Part shown: piece by piece, positions 9,400 through 13,980 of the stretch | Position numbering within the stretch: position 1 is the first letter of the stretch | How the letters are laid out: each line of letters starts with the position of its first letter | Source: Lentisphaeria bacterium | Lineage (GTDB): Bacteria > Verrucomicrobiota > Lentisphaeria > Victivallales > Victivallaceae | Direction: 5' to 3' | NCBI GenBank assembly: GCA_017456285.1 | Contig: JAFTJQ010000047.1 | Span: forward strand, 1 to 57,197 | Length of the DNA stretch: 57,197 bases | Notes under the pieces: generated by a model | The model's database searches: none | What the model saw: only the letters and a program-made list of their open reading frames with translations | Told to the model about the DNA's origin: nothing | Program-made: the position numbers and the translations under genes

Positions 9400-10236
9400 A
9401 TGATAAAAATCGGCAGATTTAATGAACTTGAAGTCGTCAAAAAAGTTGACTTCGGTGTCTATTTGGCTGAACATAGCGAGGCGGCAACTAAAATTTTGCT
9501 TCCACGCAAGTATGTGGCAGATGATTTGGAAATCGGCGACAAAATAAAGGTTTTTATCTATTTGGACTCTGAAGATCGAATCGTCGCTACCACCGAGCAG
9601 CCTTTTGCTCAAGTTGGGGAAATAAAACTTCTTAAGTGCATTGACGCCAATAAAATCGGAGCTTTTTTTGACTGGGGGTTGGAGAAAGACCTCTTTGTCC
9701 CTTTTAAACACCAGAATTTTCGCATGTTCAAGGGCGAATCGTACGTTCTGAAAGTTCTGCACGATGAGCGGAGCAATCGAATTATCGGAAGCAACTGCTT
9801 TCACAAAATTCTGCCGTGCCGTGTTGAAGATTTAACCGAAAATCAAGAAGTAAAAATGATTGTATACGGTGAAACCGACATCGGTTACAAGGTGATAATT
9901 GACCGAAAAAATTTGGGAATGATTTTCAAAAATCAGATTTTTCAAAAAGTTAAATTGGGCGATGAACTTTCGGGATTTGTCAGCAAAATCAGACCCGATG
10001 GCAAAATTGATCTTGTTTTGCAGAAAAGCGGTTTCAAAAATAAACTCTCCGAAAAAGATAAAGTATTGGAAATTTTGAAGAGTGCAGGCGGTTTCATGCC
10101 GATTACGGCCAAAACCACTCCCGCTGAAATTGCCGATATTTTCGGCATGAGCAAACGTACTTACAAGCAGATGATCGGAATGCTTTACAAAGAACGTCAG
10201 GTGGAAATTACTGATGACGGTGTGAGAGTTCTATAA
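9400..10236 (+). CDS. CvfB/YitL-like S1 RNA-binding protein
   Basis: A 278-residue protein matching the CvfB family in length and layout: S1-like beta-barrel repeats (about 1-60, 65-130 and 145-215) and a C-terminal winged helix that binds RNA. The ATG at 9400 was chosen because it follows the miaB stop by one base, has GGAGAG upstream inside miaB and gives the usual family N-terminus. Coupling to miaB suggests a role in translation or RNA stability. Its last six bases overlap the end of the convergent D-aminoacylase-like gene. Confidence 0.85.
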   Translation: MIKIGRFNELEVVKKVDFGVYLAEHSEAATKILLPRKYVADDLEIGDKIKVFIYLDSEDRIVATTEQPFAQVGEIKLLKCIDANKIGAFFDWGLEKDLFVPFKHQNFRMFKGESYVLKVLHDERSNRIIGSNCFHKILPCRVEDLTENQEVKMIVYGETDIGYKVIIDRKNLGMIFKNQIFQKVKLGDELSGFVSKIRPDGKIDLVLQKSGFKNKLSEKDKVLEILKSAGGFMPITAKTTPAEIADIFGMSKRTYKQMIGMLYKERQVEITDDGVRVL

Positions 10237-11748
10237 GTCATGCAACGGGGTTATGCCGCTGCTCGGAGTATGCGGATTGGCAAAAGTTGCATGAGTGGCA
10301 ATTCGCTCAAAATCGATCAAATTGAATTTTCCATAATAGCCTTTTCGAATTTTTCCTGAAAGCGGCAGAGAAAATCTTTTGTGTGCAAAGTAACTTAACT
10401 TTTTGATAATCAAAGAGTTGTCGATGCCGAGTTGACGGAGAATTTTAATTGCTTCCGAGGTGGTGCCGAAGTTCCTGATGTGGCTTGACCCCAAACTGTA
10501 ATCATACGGTCTGGCTGTCTCGTCGCTTCCGATCATGCAGAGGGGGTGAGAGATGATTGTACGCATATTTTTTTCGCTCATAGTTTCAAAAGCCGCAAGG
10601 CAATTAACGGAATCATTTTTGATTAAATCTAAAATCAAATCCGCAACACTTTGATTGCTTAATTGGGCAATTTGTGTTATTTTCATGCCGATAAATTTTT
10701 GATAACGTTCAAGTGCGGTTGCTACTAAAATTATTTTTTCAAAATAATCCGCTGATTTCTGCTGCAAACAATAACGAAATTCGGCACATTCGCTTACTGA
10801 ATTTTGCAGAATTTCCATGATTTTTGAGTCGGGAGTATTCAGGAATTTATCTGGACCTGCTACGCTTAATTGGGTCAGAGATTGGCAGAATGGGTAGCGG
10901 TCAAATGTCACGGAAACTCCGTGAGTTCGTGGTGCATTTTCAATTATTTCAAGCAGGCGGTCAATTTTGTGATAGTTCGCAACTCCGCTCGTTTTTAAGT
11001 GGCTTATATGGAGTTTGGAGAGTTTGGCTTTTCGAGCAAATTCCAGCATTTGAGTCAAACTTTCAAGCAGGTAATCGCCCTCGCTTTTTAGGTGGACGGC
11101 AACAATTTTGTCGTATGTTGCGACGGTTCGGAGCAAGGCGATAATTTCTGAATCCTCTGCAAATCGTCCCGGAGTGTAAAGTAACCCCAAAGATAGTCCG
11201 AGCGATCCCTCTTCAAGTGATTGTGCCAAAAGTTTCTGCATAAGTTTTAACTCCTGCACGGTAATTTGCCGCTGCTCGTAAGAGGCAACGCAACTATGAA
11301 GTGTATTATGACCCGTTAATGAATAAATTTGAGTGCCGGTGGGATTGGTTAAAGTTTGGCGGTAATATTCAGCGTAACTTGTCCAGTTGAGTTTGGTCGG
11401 GTATTTTTGATAAATTTTTTGCAGATTGGCAAAATTTCGCTCCGAAATTGGGAAGGCAGATAGCCCGCAATTTCCGACAATTTCAATTCCGAAACCGCTT
11501 GATTTTTTGCTTGCAAGTTCAAACGGAGATAAAATTGACAGGTCGGAGTGGCTGTGCGAATCGATAAATGCCGGAGTAAGAAATTGATTTTGCCCGTCAA
11601 TTATTTGATAAAAATTATCATAGGATATACTTTCAGTATCTTTGACTATATCCTCAATCCGTCTCTCTGCGACAATCACCGCACCCGGTGTGCCGAAATA
11701 ATTTATGCCGTCCAGTAATTTTACATTTTTTATCAATGTCTTTTTCAT
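10231..11748 (-). CDS. N-acyl-D-amino-acid deacylase (D-aminoacylase) family amidohydrolase
   Basis: A 505-residue metal-dependent amidohydrolase. Visible motifs are DSHSHSD for metal binding, EIVGNCG with the conserved metal-site cysteine, HLK and SHLKTSG for the lysine/histidine ligands, GSDE near the end, and a C-terminal SSGITPLHD. The start at 11748 was chosen because GAGGAAG lies at the right distance; longer frames upstream lack one. No signal peptide is visible. It would release D-amino acids from N-acyl forms or cleave related cyclic amides. Its upstream side faces the capsid cassette, but I see no functional link between them. Confidence 0.85.
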   Translation of the reverse strand: MKKTLIKNVKLLDGINYFGTPGAVIVAERRIEDIVKDTESISYDNFYQIIDGQNQFLTPAFIDSHSHSDLSILSPFELASKKSSGFGIEIVGNCGLSAFPISERNFANLQKIYQKYPTKLNWTSYAEYYRQTLTNPTGTQIYSLTGHNTLHSCVASYEQRQITVQELKLMQKLLAQSLEEGSLGLSLGLLYTPGRFAEDSEIIALLRTVATYDKIVAVHLKSEGDYLLESLTQMLEFARKAKLSKLHISHLKTSGVANYHKIDRLLEIIENAPRTHGVSVTFDRYPFCQSLTQLSVAGPDKFLNTPDSKIMEILQNSVSECAEFRYCLQQKSADYFEKIILVATALERYQKFIGMKITQIAQLSNQSVADLILDLIKNDSVNCLAAFETMSEKNMRTIISHPLCMIGSDETARPYDYSLGSSHIRNFGTTSEAIKILRQLGIDNSLIIKKLSYFAHKRFSLPLSGKIRKGYYGKFNLIDFERIATHATFANPHTPSSGITPLHDL

Positions 11749-11853
11749 TAAAATAGCTTCCTCTCTAATAATATAACACATTTTTTGAAAAATTCCCCTC
11801 AAAAGTTGACATTTTTGCCAAAATTAAATCACAATTAGCAGAAAGGAGGTAAA

Positions 11854-12309
11854 ATGAAATTGTCTGATTTGATTCAAAAGGCAGTCGATGAGAATGAAAA
11901 ACTCTCCGCCGATGAGAAAAAAATTCTTTTGGAACTCGATTTGGATAAACTTAATGACGACGTAAAGTCATTGAGAGAGTCTTTGGAGATTGCCAATGGC
12001 GAAAAAGAGTCTGCCTTGAAACAACTTGCTGACCATATCTATACTGATAATGTCAGCAAAATCGCCGCAGATTATAAATTCTCCGATAAAAAATATCTGG
12101 AGTATTTATGTCGGCAAAATAATATTGATTGTACCGATGCAGGAAGTTTCACCCCGTTTATGGAGGAATTAAAGAAAAATTCTCCGAAACTTTTCAGTGT
12201 GAATCTCAAAGCAGGCTGCAATCCGCTTGAAAGCAGCAAAAATATTAACTCCATCGGAAATGAACGGGATATTGCTGCTATGCTCAAAATGGCACCAGAA
12301 TTAAAATAA
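11854..12309 (+). CDS. Scaffold-like small protein ahead of phage-type capsid gene
   Basis: A 151-residue acidic/lysine-rich protein. Residues 1-65 are predicted coiled coil, and the C-terminal part is short and hydrophilic. No protease motif is visible. I recognise no family by sequence. The place directly before the capsid gene, the size and the coiled coil fit a phage scaffolding protein, which is an inference. The AAAGGAGGT ribosome site is a near-perfect match to the anti-Shine-Dalgarno sequence, the best in the window, so strong translation is expected. TTGACA is present at 11806-11811, but no good -10 follows. Confidence 0.55.
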   Translation: MKLSDLIQKAVDENEKLSADEKKILLELDLDKLNDDVKSLRESLEIANGEKESALKQLADHIYTDNVSKIAADYKFSDKKYLEYLCRQNNIDCTDAGSFTPFMEELKKNSPKLFSVNLKAGCNPLESSKNINSIGNERDIAAMLKMAPELK

Positions 12310-12333
12310 AAATAGTGAAAGGATAAAAAAATT

Positions 12334-13485
12334 ATGTTGTTTTCTTACAGTTTTCAAAACAAAAAACGTGATCTCGCTGAAGTTCTTTCAACTGTAATTA
12401 AGAATGAACCGAGATTTATTTCTAACTTCAAAATGGTCGAAAATGCTACTCAGCAGAAACATGAGTGGCTCGAAGATCAAATTACCGGACGCTCTGTTAC
12501 TGCTTCAAGCATTACCGAAGCAGGCGTTATGACCGTCAGTGCAGGAGATATTGAAAAAATTAAAGTCGGTTCTCTTTTAACTCGTGTCGGAGATTCTGCA
12601 CTTTTGCGAGTTGATGCAGTAAATAACGGAGTTTTGAATATTTCAATTGTTTCCGCAAATGGTTCTGCAACGACTTTAAGCACTCTCGGAGATAATGTTC
12701 CGGCAGTTTTTAACATTGTTTCAACTCCGGTCGCAGAGGGGTCAATTATCGGGGACGAGACCGGCTTAAGTGGTAAAACAAATTACAACTGCACCCAGAT
12801 TTTCCGCAAAGATATTATTTTAAGCGGTTCTGCTCTCGCGGTAAATGTCTTCGGTAACGTCGATAATTTGCTTAACCGTCAAACCGGGTTCGCTCTTGAG
12901 GAATTGGCTCGTGATTTGAATAGAGTAGCACTTTTCGGCCGTCGTGTGGAAGCAAGTGCTGTTAATAAGGGTGAAGCAGGCGGACTCTATTACTTCGGCT
13001 GCGGCGAGGGTGCAATGGAGATTGATGCCAATGGAACTACTGTAGACAGTTTCTCTCTTAATGATGCAGCACAGGCAATTTTGAGCGAAGGCGGTGAACC
13101 GATGCAGATTCTTTGCAGTGTCGGTCAGGCCCGTGTGCTTTCTAATGAATATCGCAACAATTTGCAGATTTTGCGTGCAGATGAGTGCCGTGGTGCTTAC
13201 GTCGCCCAGATTGTTAATGAAATTAACGGCAGAGCGATGACCATTATGGCAGATCCCGATATGGTTGATACCGATGTTTGGGTTATTGATACTGCCGGTT
13301 TCGGCTTGAGTGCCTTGAGCGGACGTGCGATTAATGATCGCGATGCAACTCCGAACGGATTTGACGGTATTAAGCGTATGGCATTGGGCGAATTGACCTT
13401 TGAATTCAAAAATGCTAAACAGCGTTTGTGCCGTATCAAAAACTTGATGCCGAGTACCGCTGCAATTGCCGCTATGAAAAACTAA
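12334..13485 (+). CDS. Phage major capsid protein, SU10/DUF5309 type
   Basis: A 383-residue protein that matches the layout of DUF5309 (SU10-like, HK97-fold) capsid proteins. The N-terminal arm is followed by an inserted beta-rich domain at about 60-135 (VGSLLTRVGD and DAVNNG pattern) and EGSIIGDETG. The signature NYNCTQIFRKDI opens the main domain. The ADP.MVDTDVWVIDTAG-like segment and the final GELTFEFKNA are where such proteins end. No proteolytic prohead signal is visible. The frame is intact, with an AAAGGA ribosome site. It lies 24 bases after the scaffold-like gene and is followed by a hairpin. No terminase, portal or tail gene is near. Confidence 0.8.
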   Translation: MLFSYSFQNKKRDLAEVLSTVIKNEPRFISNFKMVENATQQKHEWLEDQITGRSVTASSITEAGVMTVSAGDIEKIKVGSLLTRVGDSALLRVDAVNNGVLNISIVSANGSATTLSTLGDNVPAVFNIVSTPVAEGSIIGDETGLSGKTNYNCTQIFRKDIILSGSALAVNVFGNVDNLLNRQTGFALEELARDLNRVALFGRRVEASAVNKGEAGGLYYFGCGEGAMEIDANGTTVDSFSLNDAAQAILSEGGEPMQILCSVGQARVLSNEYRNNLQILRADECRGAYVAQIVNEINGRAMTIMADPDMVDTDVWVIDTAGFGLSALSGRAINDRDATPNGFDGIKRMALGELTFEFKNAKQRLCRIKNLMPSTAAIAAMKN

Positions 13486-13497
13486 TTAAACTATTTC

Positions 13498-13540
13498 AAA
13501 TCAGCCATGGCATAAAAAAATGTGTTCATGGCTGATTTTC
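13498..13540 (+). terminator. Strong hairpin after the capsid gene
   Basis: A perfect 12-bp stem (13498-13509 with 13527-13538) with a 17-base A-rich loop, followed by only TTTT then C. It begins 12 bases after the capsid stop. It may act as a partial terminator that lowers expression of the next gene relative to the capsid, or protect the capsid mRNA 3' end. Confidence 0.6.
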
Positions 13541-13572
13541 TATCTGAAATTTTACCAAAAAAGGAGTGCATT

Positions 13573-13980
13573 ATGGAAGAAACTATTATGAATTTATTAG
13601 AGGAAGCCGAGGGGTATTTCGCAAATGATTTGCGAGAGTCTTATTGGAAAAACTTAACCGACAATGAGAAAAATGGTGCAATCAAAATTGCTTTGCTGGA
13701 CGTAAAAAGCATTTTGAATATTTGCAATCGGGAATGTGACTTGGAGGATAAACTGGTGAGAGCTGCCGTTTTTGAACAGGCAATTCATTTGGTGATTCAA
13801 CGGATTTTGCTTGAGCAGGAGAAGGAATTAACCCGCTGTGATATTGACGGAGTTGGCAGCGAGAGTTATGCAATTAATGACAGCAAAAAAGAGTATTACC
13901 TAAAGGAACGTGTCTCTAATCGAACTGTCAGTTTATTGGCAATGCCCGATGTCAGAAAAATGATTAAAATTATCCGTTAA
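13573..13980 (+). CDS. Head-tail connector-like protein (DnaT_2/gp6-like)
   Basis: A 135-residue mostly helical protein. The start at 13573 has AAGGAG seven bases upstream; longer versions would begin inside the hairpin. The N-terminal half (EEAEGYFANDL, then SYWKNLTDNEKNGAIKIAL) follows the pattern of small phage connector/DnaT_2-like proteins usually found just after capsid genes. The function is inferred from this pattern and from position. No portal or tail gene follows; the next gene is mcsA. It could instead have a new job in a domesticated capsid system. Confidence 0.5.
   Translation: MEETIMNLLEEAEGYFANDLRESYWKNLTDNEKNGAIKIALLDVKSILNICNRECDLEDKLVRAAVFEQAIHLVIQRILLEQEKELTRCDIDGVGSESYAINDSKKEYYLKERVSNRTVSLLAMPDVRKMIKIIR

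Follow-up and report, generated by a model that had tools for sequence, protein, structure and literature searches.

To our knowledge, gene transfer agents (GTAs) are known from few lineages. The viriform GTAs (Rhodogtaviriformidae, with RcGTA; Bartogtaviriformidae; and Brachygtaviriformidae, with BhGTA) consist of structural and packaging genes of tailed-phage type that are fixed in the chromosome at several loci, are inherited vertically and have diversified together with their hosts. RcGTA is encoded at five loci, and in BhGTA the putative terL gene is found outside the main cluster (PMC9662315). The published layout nearest to the one described here is that of FpGTA from Faecalibacterium, which is fixed across the genus and has a head and packaging operon and a distant, separate operon for tail and lysis; its head genes form one 10.5 kb operon, and both particles and packaged DNA have been demonstrated (PMC12946183). 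The phage head genes that we describe in the Victivallaceae share with the viriform GTAs their tailed-phage ancestry, chromosomal fixation at several loci, vertical inheritance and co-diversification with the host. They differ in belonging to another host phylum, in having an SU10-type capsid and in being known from genes alone; further, their capsid, portal and large terminase (TerL) genes are unlinked in most genera and the cassettes are marked by a common upstream element. Where FpGTA keeps its head genes together, most genera here have them divided over separate loci. With a probability of roughly 70%, we take the three genes studied here to be the capsid part of a dispersed GTA, a siphophage-like particle for packaging DNA that has been domesticated and is apparently new for the phylum Lentisphaerota. 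The literature that we searched, subscription papers and preprints aside, contained no report of a GTA in this phylum.

The capsid cassette of the window

The window, the whole stretch of 57,197 nucleotides that was analysed, carries on its plus strand three intact open reading frames (11854-12309, 12334-13485 and a frame spanning 13522-13980) that a first-pass annotation had already recognized as a trio. On one side they are flanked by a gene on the minus strand ending at 10231, annotated as a D-aminoacylase and better read as an amidohydrolase, and on the other by mcsA-mcsB, as annotated. Rfam and tRNA scans of the trio region returned nothing. The features of the locus are:

11805..11811, plus strand: GTTGACA, promoter-like element, 49 nt before the scaffold start
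11840..11849, plus strand: Shine-Dalgarno region of the first gene, AGAAAGGAGG, read from the sequence
11854..12309, plus strand: scaffold-like protein, 151 aa (weak PF06810 match; homologue of the scaffold gene of the L066 phage)
12334..13485, plus strand: SU10-type HK97-fold major capsid protein, 383 aa (Pfam, PHROG and fold search)
13573..13980, plus strand: product of the gene that follows the capsid gene, 135 aa, a head-tail connector judging by its place (homology and position)

The first ATG is preceded by AAAGGAGG. Taken alone, the scaffold-like protein matches PF06810 at 4.5e-4, under Pfam's cut-off, and the scaffold label of the first pass would be a weak one; it is upheld through homology to a gene that lies ahead of the capsid gene in complete phages and that itself hits the head scaffolding family phrog_194 at 4e-14. 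The annotation of the second gene as an HK97-fold capsid protein of SU10/DUF5309 type was borne out. Its product matches PF17236 (SU10_MCP) at 7e-45 and 154 bits (curated cut-off 24.1) as well as phrog_1328, and its AlphaFold2 model (mean pLDDT 75, medium confidence) retrieves VP1, SU10 and HK97-fold capsids in a fold search. The score above the cut-off and the HK97 fold place it in the SU10-type capsid family (PF17236). Encapsulins also appear in the fold search; the closest relatives by sequence and fold together are the capsids of SU10 and VP1 phages. Judged by identity, the window capsid has no close relative among named phage records, where the best match reaches 29% (Brevibacillus MRSA107) and Bacillus and Vibrio phages are matched as well. 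Distant capsid relatives, at 36-41% identity, are found in Planctomycetes MAGs (L055, L057, L061).

The frame of the third gene stood as annotated, but its start is most likely the ATG at 13573, which has AAAAAAGGAGTGC just upstream, and not the GTG at 13522. The encoded protein gave zero matches in Pfam or PHROG, and its modelled fold had no significant match in the PDB; it is homologous to the gene following the capsid gene in complete phages. As there is no family or fold match, we keep the earlier designation as a connector by position and homology.

Head genes scattered over the chromosome

The first-pass annotation had noted the lack of a terminase or portal gene, which is true of the window but not of the genome. 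The genome from which the window comes (G000; 2.42 Mb, 92 contigs, 98% complete) has one capsid gene and, on two other contigs, the following genes:

G000:C3:1406-2776: portal, single intact copy (phage-portal query; PHROGs portal 2.5e-35)
G000:C50:27201-28412: TerL, single intact copy (phage-TerL query; PHROGs terminase large subunit 2e-62)

The portal gene has a SIS-domain gene and a hexapeptide-transferase-like gene as neighbours and is followed by a 91-aa gene related to a head-closure-like gene found after the portal elsewhere. The TerL gene sits between genes for a pyridoxal-dependent decarboxylase and a GH127 protein, and the terminase keeps its Walker A motif (GGSRSGKT), Walker B region and acidic nuclease motifs, as in prophage enzymes. 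The head genes of this genome thus occupy three separate loci on three contigs, among housekeeping genes. The presence of portal and terminase at the genome level changes how the head is to be interpreted: a shell that shares its genome with a portal and a motif-intact terminase is most probably the head of a particle that packages DNA. The protein nanocompartment that the first pass had offered as an example of a domesticated capsid finds no support here, because the genome has kept a portal as well as a terminase whose ATPase and nuclease motifs are intact.

In strain zth2 (G012, CP071032), whose genome is a single contig, the capsid cassette lies at 1.774 Mb, the portal, behind housekeeping genes, at 1.786 Mb and a TerS-TerL pair at 1.604 Mb. 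The capsid, portal and TerL genes of G020 (5 contigs) are located at 0.57, 1.86 and 2.24 Mb of the same contig. Because the loci are apart in these two genomes also, the scatter is not an assembly artefact, and loci lying up to ~1.7 Mb apart in coordinates (G020) would not be packageable as one piece. All three genes are unlinked in most genera. Genus g16 is an exception: it has a compact cassette, TerS-portal-scaffold-capsid-neck-(c19)-TerL, flanked by housekeeping genes and with no adjoining tail genes. In several g16 genomes a divergent gene adjoins the head cassette, and the one tested encodes a helix-turn-helix (HTH) domain and a peptidase S24 domain, which suggests a possible damage-responsive switch. 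This CI/LexA-like gene (L095:13053-13958; domains tested in L095) stands at the TerS-portal end of the cassette, and matching divergent genes occur at L079, L097, L102 and L104, all of the same genus.

Queries for capsid, portal and TerL found the three genes together in 29 of 37 family genomes and none of them in the remaining 8, with copy numbers that are mostly single. The chance of such co-presence is ~1 in 39 million if genomes are taken as independent, a figure that phylogenetic clustering makes too strong. The eight non-carriers span five genera, and those included in a tree of the host gene MiaB sit at several points with weak support. When 388 genomes sampled from the phylum were searched, the capsid gene was present in 47 members of the Victivallaceae (11 listed members were without it); the only other carriers came from two related families, with two genomes each. 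Capsid frames are intact in nearly all genomes. One g16 genome carries the capsid gene as two abutting frames (G029:C25:32883-33883), through a frameshift or a sequencing error. In genus g4 (G005, G022 and G033) the capsid and portal genes are intact and TerL is found as 4-6 partial pieces per genome, on many contigs and some with stops; these TerL genes are duplicated, interrupted or mis-assembled.

Inheritance, selection and the upstream element

The distances of capsid, portal and TerL each correlate with those of MiaB, the one marker gene on which the host comparison rests (Mantel r of 0.72, 0.79 and 0.70, respectively; 0 of 2000 permutations as high), and correlate with each other too. 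In the capsid tree almost every genus comes out as one clade, with one g8 copy (G050) unresolved. Prophage copies branch among the scattered ones, and repeated domestication or exchange with prophages is therefore possible. The neighbours of the cassettes are conserved within genera, and a few are conserved across them: g1, g9 and g13 all have the amidohydrolase gene next to the trio, and portal neighbours reading as fabH and plsX recur in g11 and g19. The dN/dS comparison proposed with the first-pass annotation came out on the side of purifying selection (medians of 0.16-0.19). Within genera the median was 0.19 for capsid, 0.16 for portal and 0.17 for TerL, against 0.10 for MiaB, all rough values with many high dS, and they indicate that the three head genes are under purifying selection. 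Such selection alone is also expected in active phages.

Upstream of the cassettes we found a common element. In the window's own genome, AGTTGACA or GGTTGACA precedes the scaffold gene, the portal (L128) and TerL (L156). In the genomes with scattered head genes, 47 of 70 cassette starts have the exact heptamer GTTGACA upstream, at a distance of 34-114 nt (median 60). Of the other 23, many show the site with a single mismatch, or are TerL genes that follow a cassette gene with the site. By comparison, the heptamer was found in front of 10 of 872 other ORFs and, among 147 conserved host genes whose upstream sequence is free, in front of 2 (Fisher 1e-27, a value that is only indicative because orthologous cassettes are not independent and the choice of start differed between the sets). 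Under the control's own start rule, it was found at 25 of 81 cassette ORFs, internal genes included. It also precedes tail tube genes in G027, G035, G012 and G003 and distal-tail cassettes in G029 and G017, and two prophage-like loci carry it upstream as well. The window holds five copies against 6.4 expected by chance, a count that is uninformative alone; only the copy at 11805 stands before a gene start. The hexamer TTGACA is also the common -35 box, and the element resembles such a box followed by a weak -10. Together, the scatter of the cassettes and their common element suggest joint control.

Domestication of the head genes, which the first pass had proposed for the capsid, is well supported by vertical inheritance, purifying selection, neighbours conserved within genera, the common upstream element and all-or-none presence with the other head genes. 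Of the attributes by which GTAs are classified (PMC9662315), the three that can be read from sequence are found here too; the others concern the particle, which in a GTA packages mainly random host DNA, cannot take up its own genome in full and delivers its DNA to other cells. The structural proteins are homologous to those of tailed phages; the genes are fully endogenised, often at several loci (G000, G012 and G020); and inheritance is mostly vertical, with host co-diversification (Mantel tests, capsid tree and neighbours, set against one host marker).

Tail genes and the nature of the proposed particle

Three complete, contiguous prophages of the Victivallaceae (L066, L105 and L147) carry homologous capsid, scaffold, portal and terminase genes together with genes for tail tube, tape measure and distal tail. 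The window genes share their families with these prophages and with SU10/DUF5309-type phages, but there the genes form contiguous, complete modules with tails whereas the window copy is isolated. The first-pass annotation had reasoned that finding the trio inside complete prophages would speak against domestication; such relatives do exist, yet the isolated copies of most genomes stand apart from them and are co-inherited with the host. In L066, an inserted glycosyltransferase gene (11406-12638) separates the capsid gene from the head gene that comes next.

The genomes with scattered heads also contain tail genes. Tube genes occur singly between housekeeping genes in g2, g7, g10, g11, g14 and g16, some of them fused to a tail-terminator-like domain, and a distal tail cassette adjoins yidC, gapA or rhaB (names read from the sequences) in three g16 genomes. 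Two tubes of ~300 aa (L043:3274-4026 and L241:9178-10071) look like fusions with this domain, which is encoded by a separate gene in phages. The distribution is patchy, with no tail genes detected in several carriers. In the window's own genome, profile searches and a query with a tube fragment from a genome of the same genus did not turn up genes for a tail tube, a tape measure or a distal tail, although tail proteins evolve quickly and may escape such searches. A lysis gene was not identified either.

In a dispersed GTA, the cassettes would be switched on together, scaffold and capsid protein would build a procapsid on the portal, and the terminase would fill it with host DNA. The particle would then be completed by connector and head-closure proteins, and by tail proteins in genomes that retain them, before being released to deliver its DNA to kin. 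We infer this delivery, since tail genes were not found in the own genome and the particle is known here only through its genes; the missing tail genes are the main weakness of the GTA reading. Its main rival is a DNA-packaging head without a conventional tail, which would, for example, store, export or destroy DNA on cell lysis with no GTA-like delivery. Every carrier has capsid, portal and TerL while tail genes are patchy, and FpGTA particles showed no identifiable tail (PMC12946183). We nevertheless consider a tail-less head unlikely, given the scattered tube and distal-tail cassettes of other genera, several with GTTGACA, the retention of connector-position and head-closure-like genes, and the fact that fast-diverging tail proteins can be missed. 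It is conceivable, if rather improbable, that a phage head and its packaging motor have been split into single-copy, co-regulated, all-or-none cassettes, maybe without a conventional tail, to give a family-wide DNA-packaging particle unlike any described GTA.

The compact head-and-packaging module of g16, which adjoins a divergent HTH/S24 repressor gene and has no tail genes next to it, recalls a cf-PICI-like, capsid-forming satellite, one that builds a head for itself and takes its tails from a helper phage. This origin is very unlikely for the family, because ORF lists of the adjoining DNA show no integrase or replication gene beside the cassettes, genes on different chromosomal segments in most genera cannot move as one island, and inheritance is vertical. 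We did not class the genes as a capsid-forming phage-inducible chromosomal island: they are unlinked in most genera and no integrase was seen beside the cassettes. A DNA-free protein nanocompartment could account for a capsid cassette that stands alone within the window, and the HK97 fold is one that encapsulins have too; we regard it as highly improbable in view of portal and terminase genes that accompany the capsid gene without exception in 37 genomes and keep their catalytic motifs, and of a cassette in which no cargo gene was seen. Encapsulins resemble the capsid protein in their HK97-like fold, but the genome with the trio retains scaffold, portal and terminase genes. Assignment to the encapsulins was rejected, with portal and TerL encoded alongside the capsid in this genome and in all carriers among the 37. 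Equally slight is the probability that the genes are fragments of decaying prophages, a reading in favour of which stand the family's complete prophages and their homologous genes (L066, L105 and L147). Frames that are intact in nearly all genomes, dN/dS well below 1, positions conserved within genera, all-or-none co-occurrence and the common upstream element all argue against decay.

If the dispersed GTA is real, a vertically inherited DNA-packaging particle in most of a gut and marine family would be an added route of gene flow, and a phage head could be split gene by gene over a chromosome under joint selection. Split head genes escape cluster-based searches for prophages and GTAs, and co-occurrence combined with a common upstream element can find further such systems. 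Filamentous, hexagonal and icosahedral particles are reported to be released by strain zth2 when polysaccharide is present, and sequenced extrachromosomal phage genomes were assigned to these preparations (PMC11361711). The zth2 phage records from that study gave no capsid match, and some of the particles might be of chromosomal origin, from the scattered head genes. As a cultured carrier with a complete genome, zth2 makes the system directly testable; its cassette loci are those labelled L041, L129 and L159.
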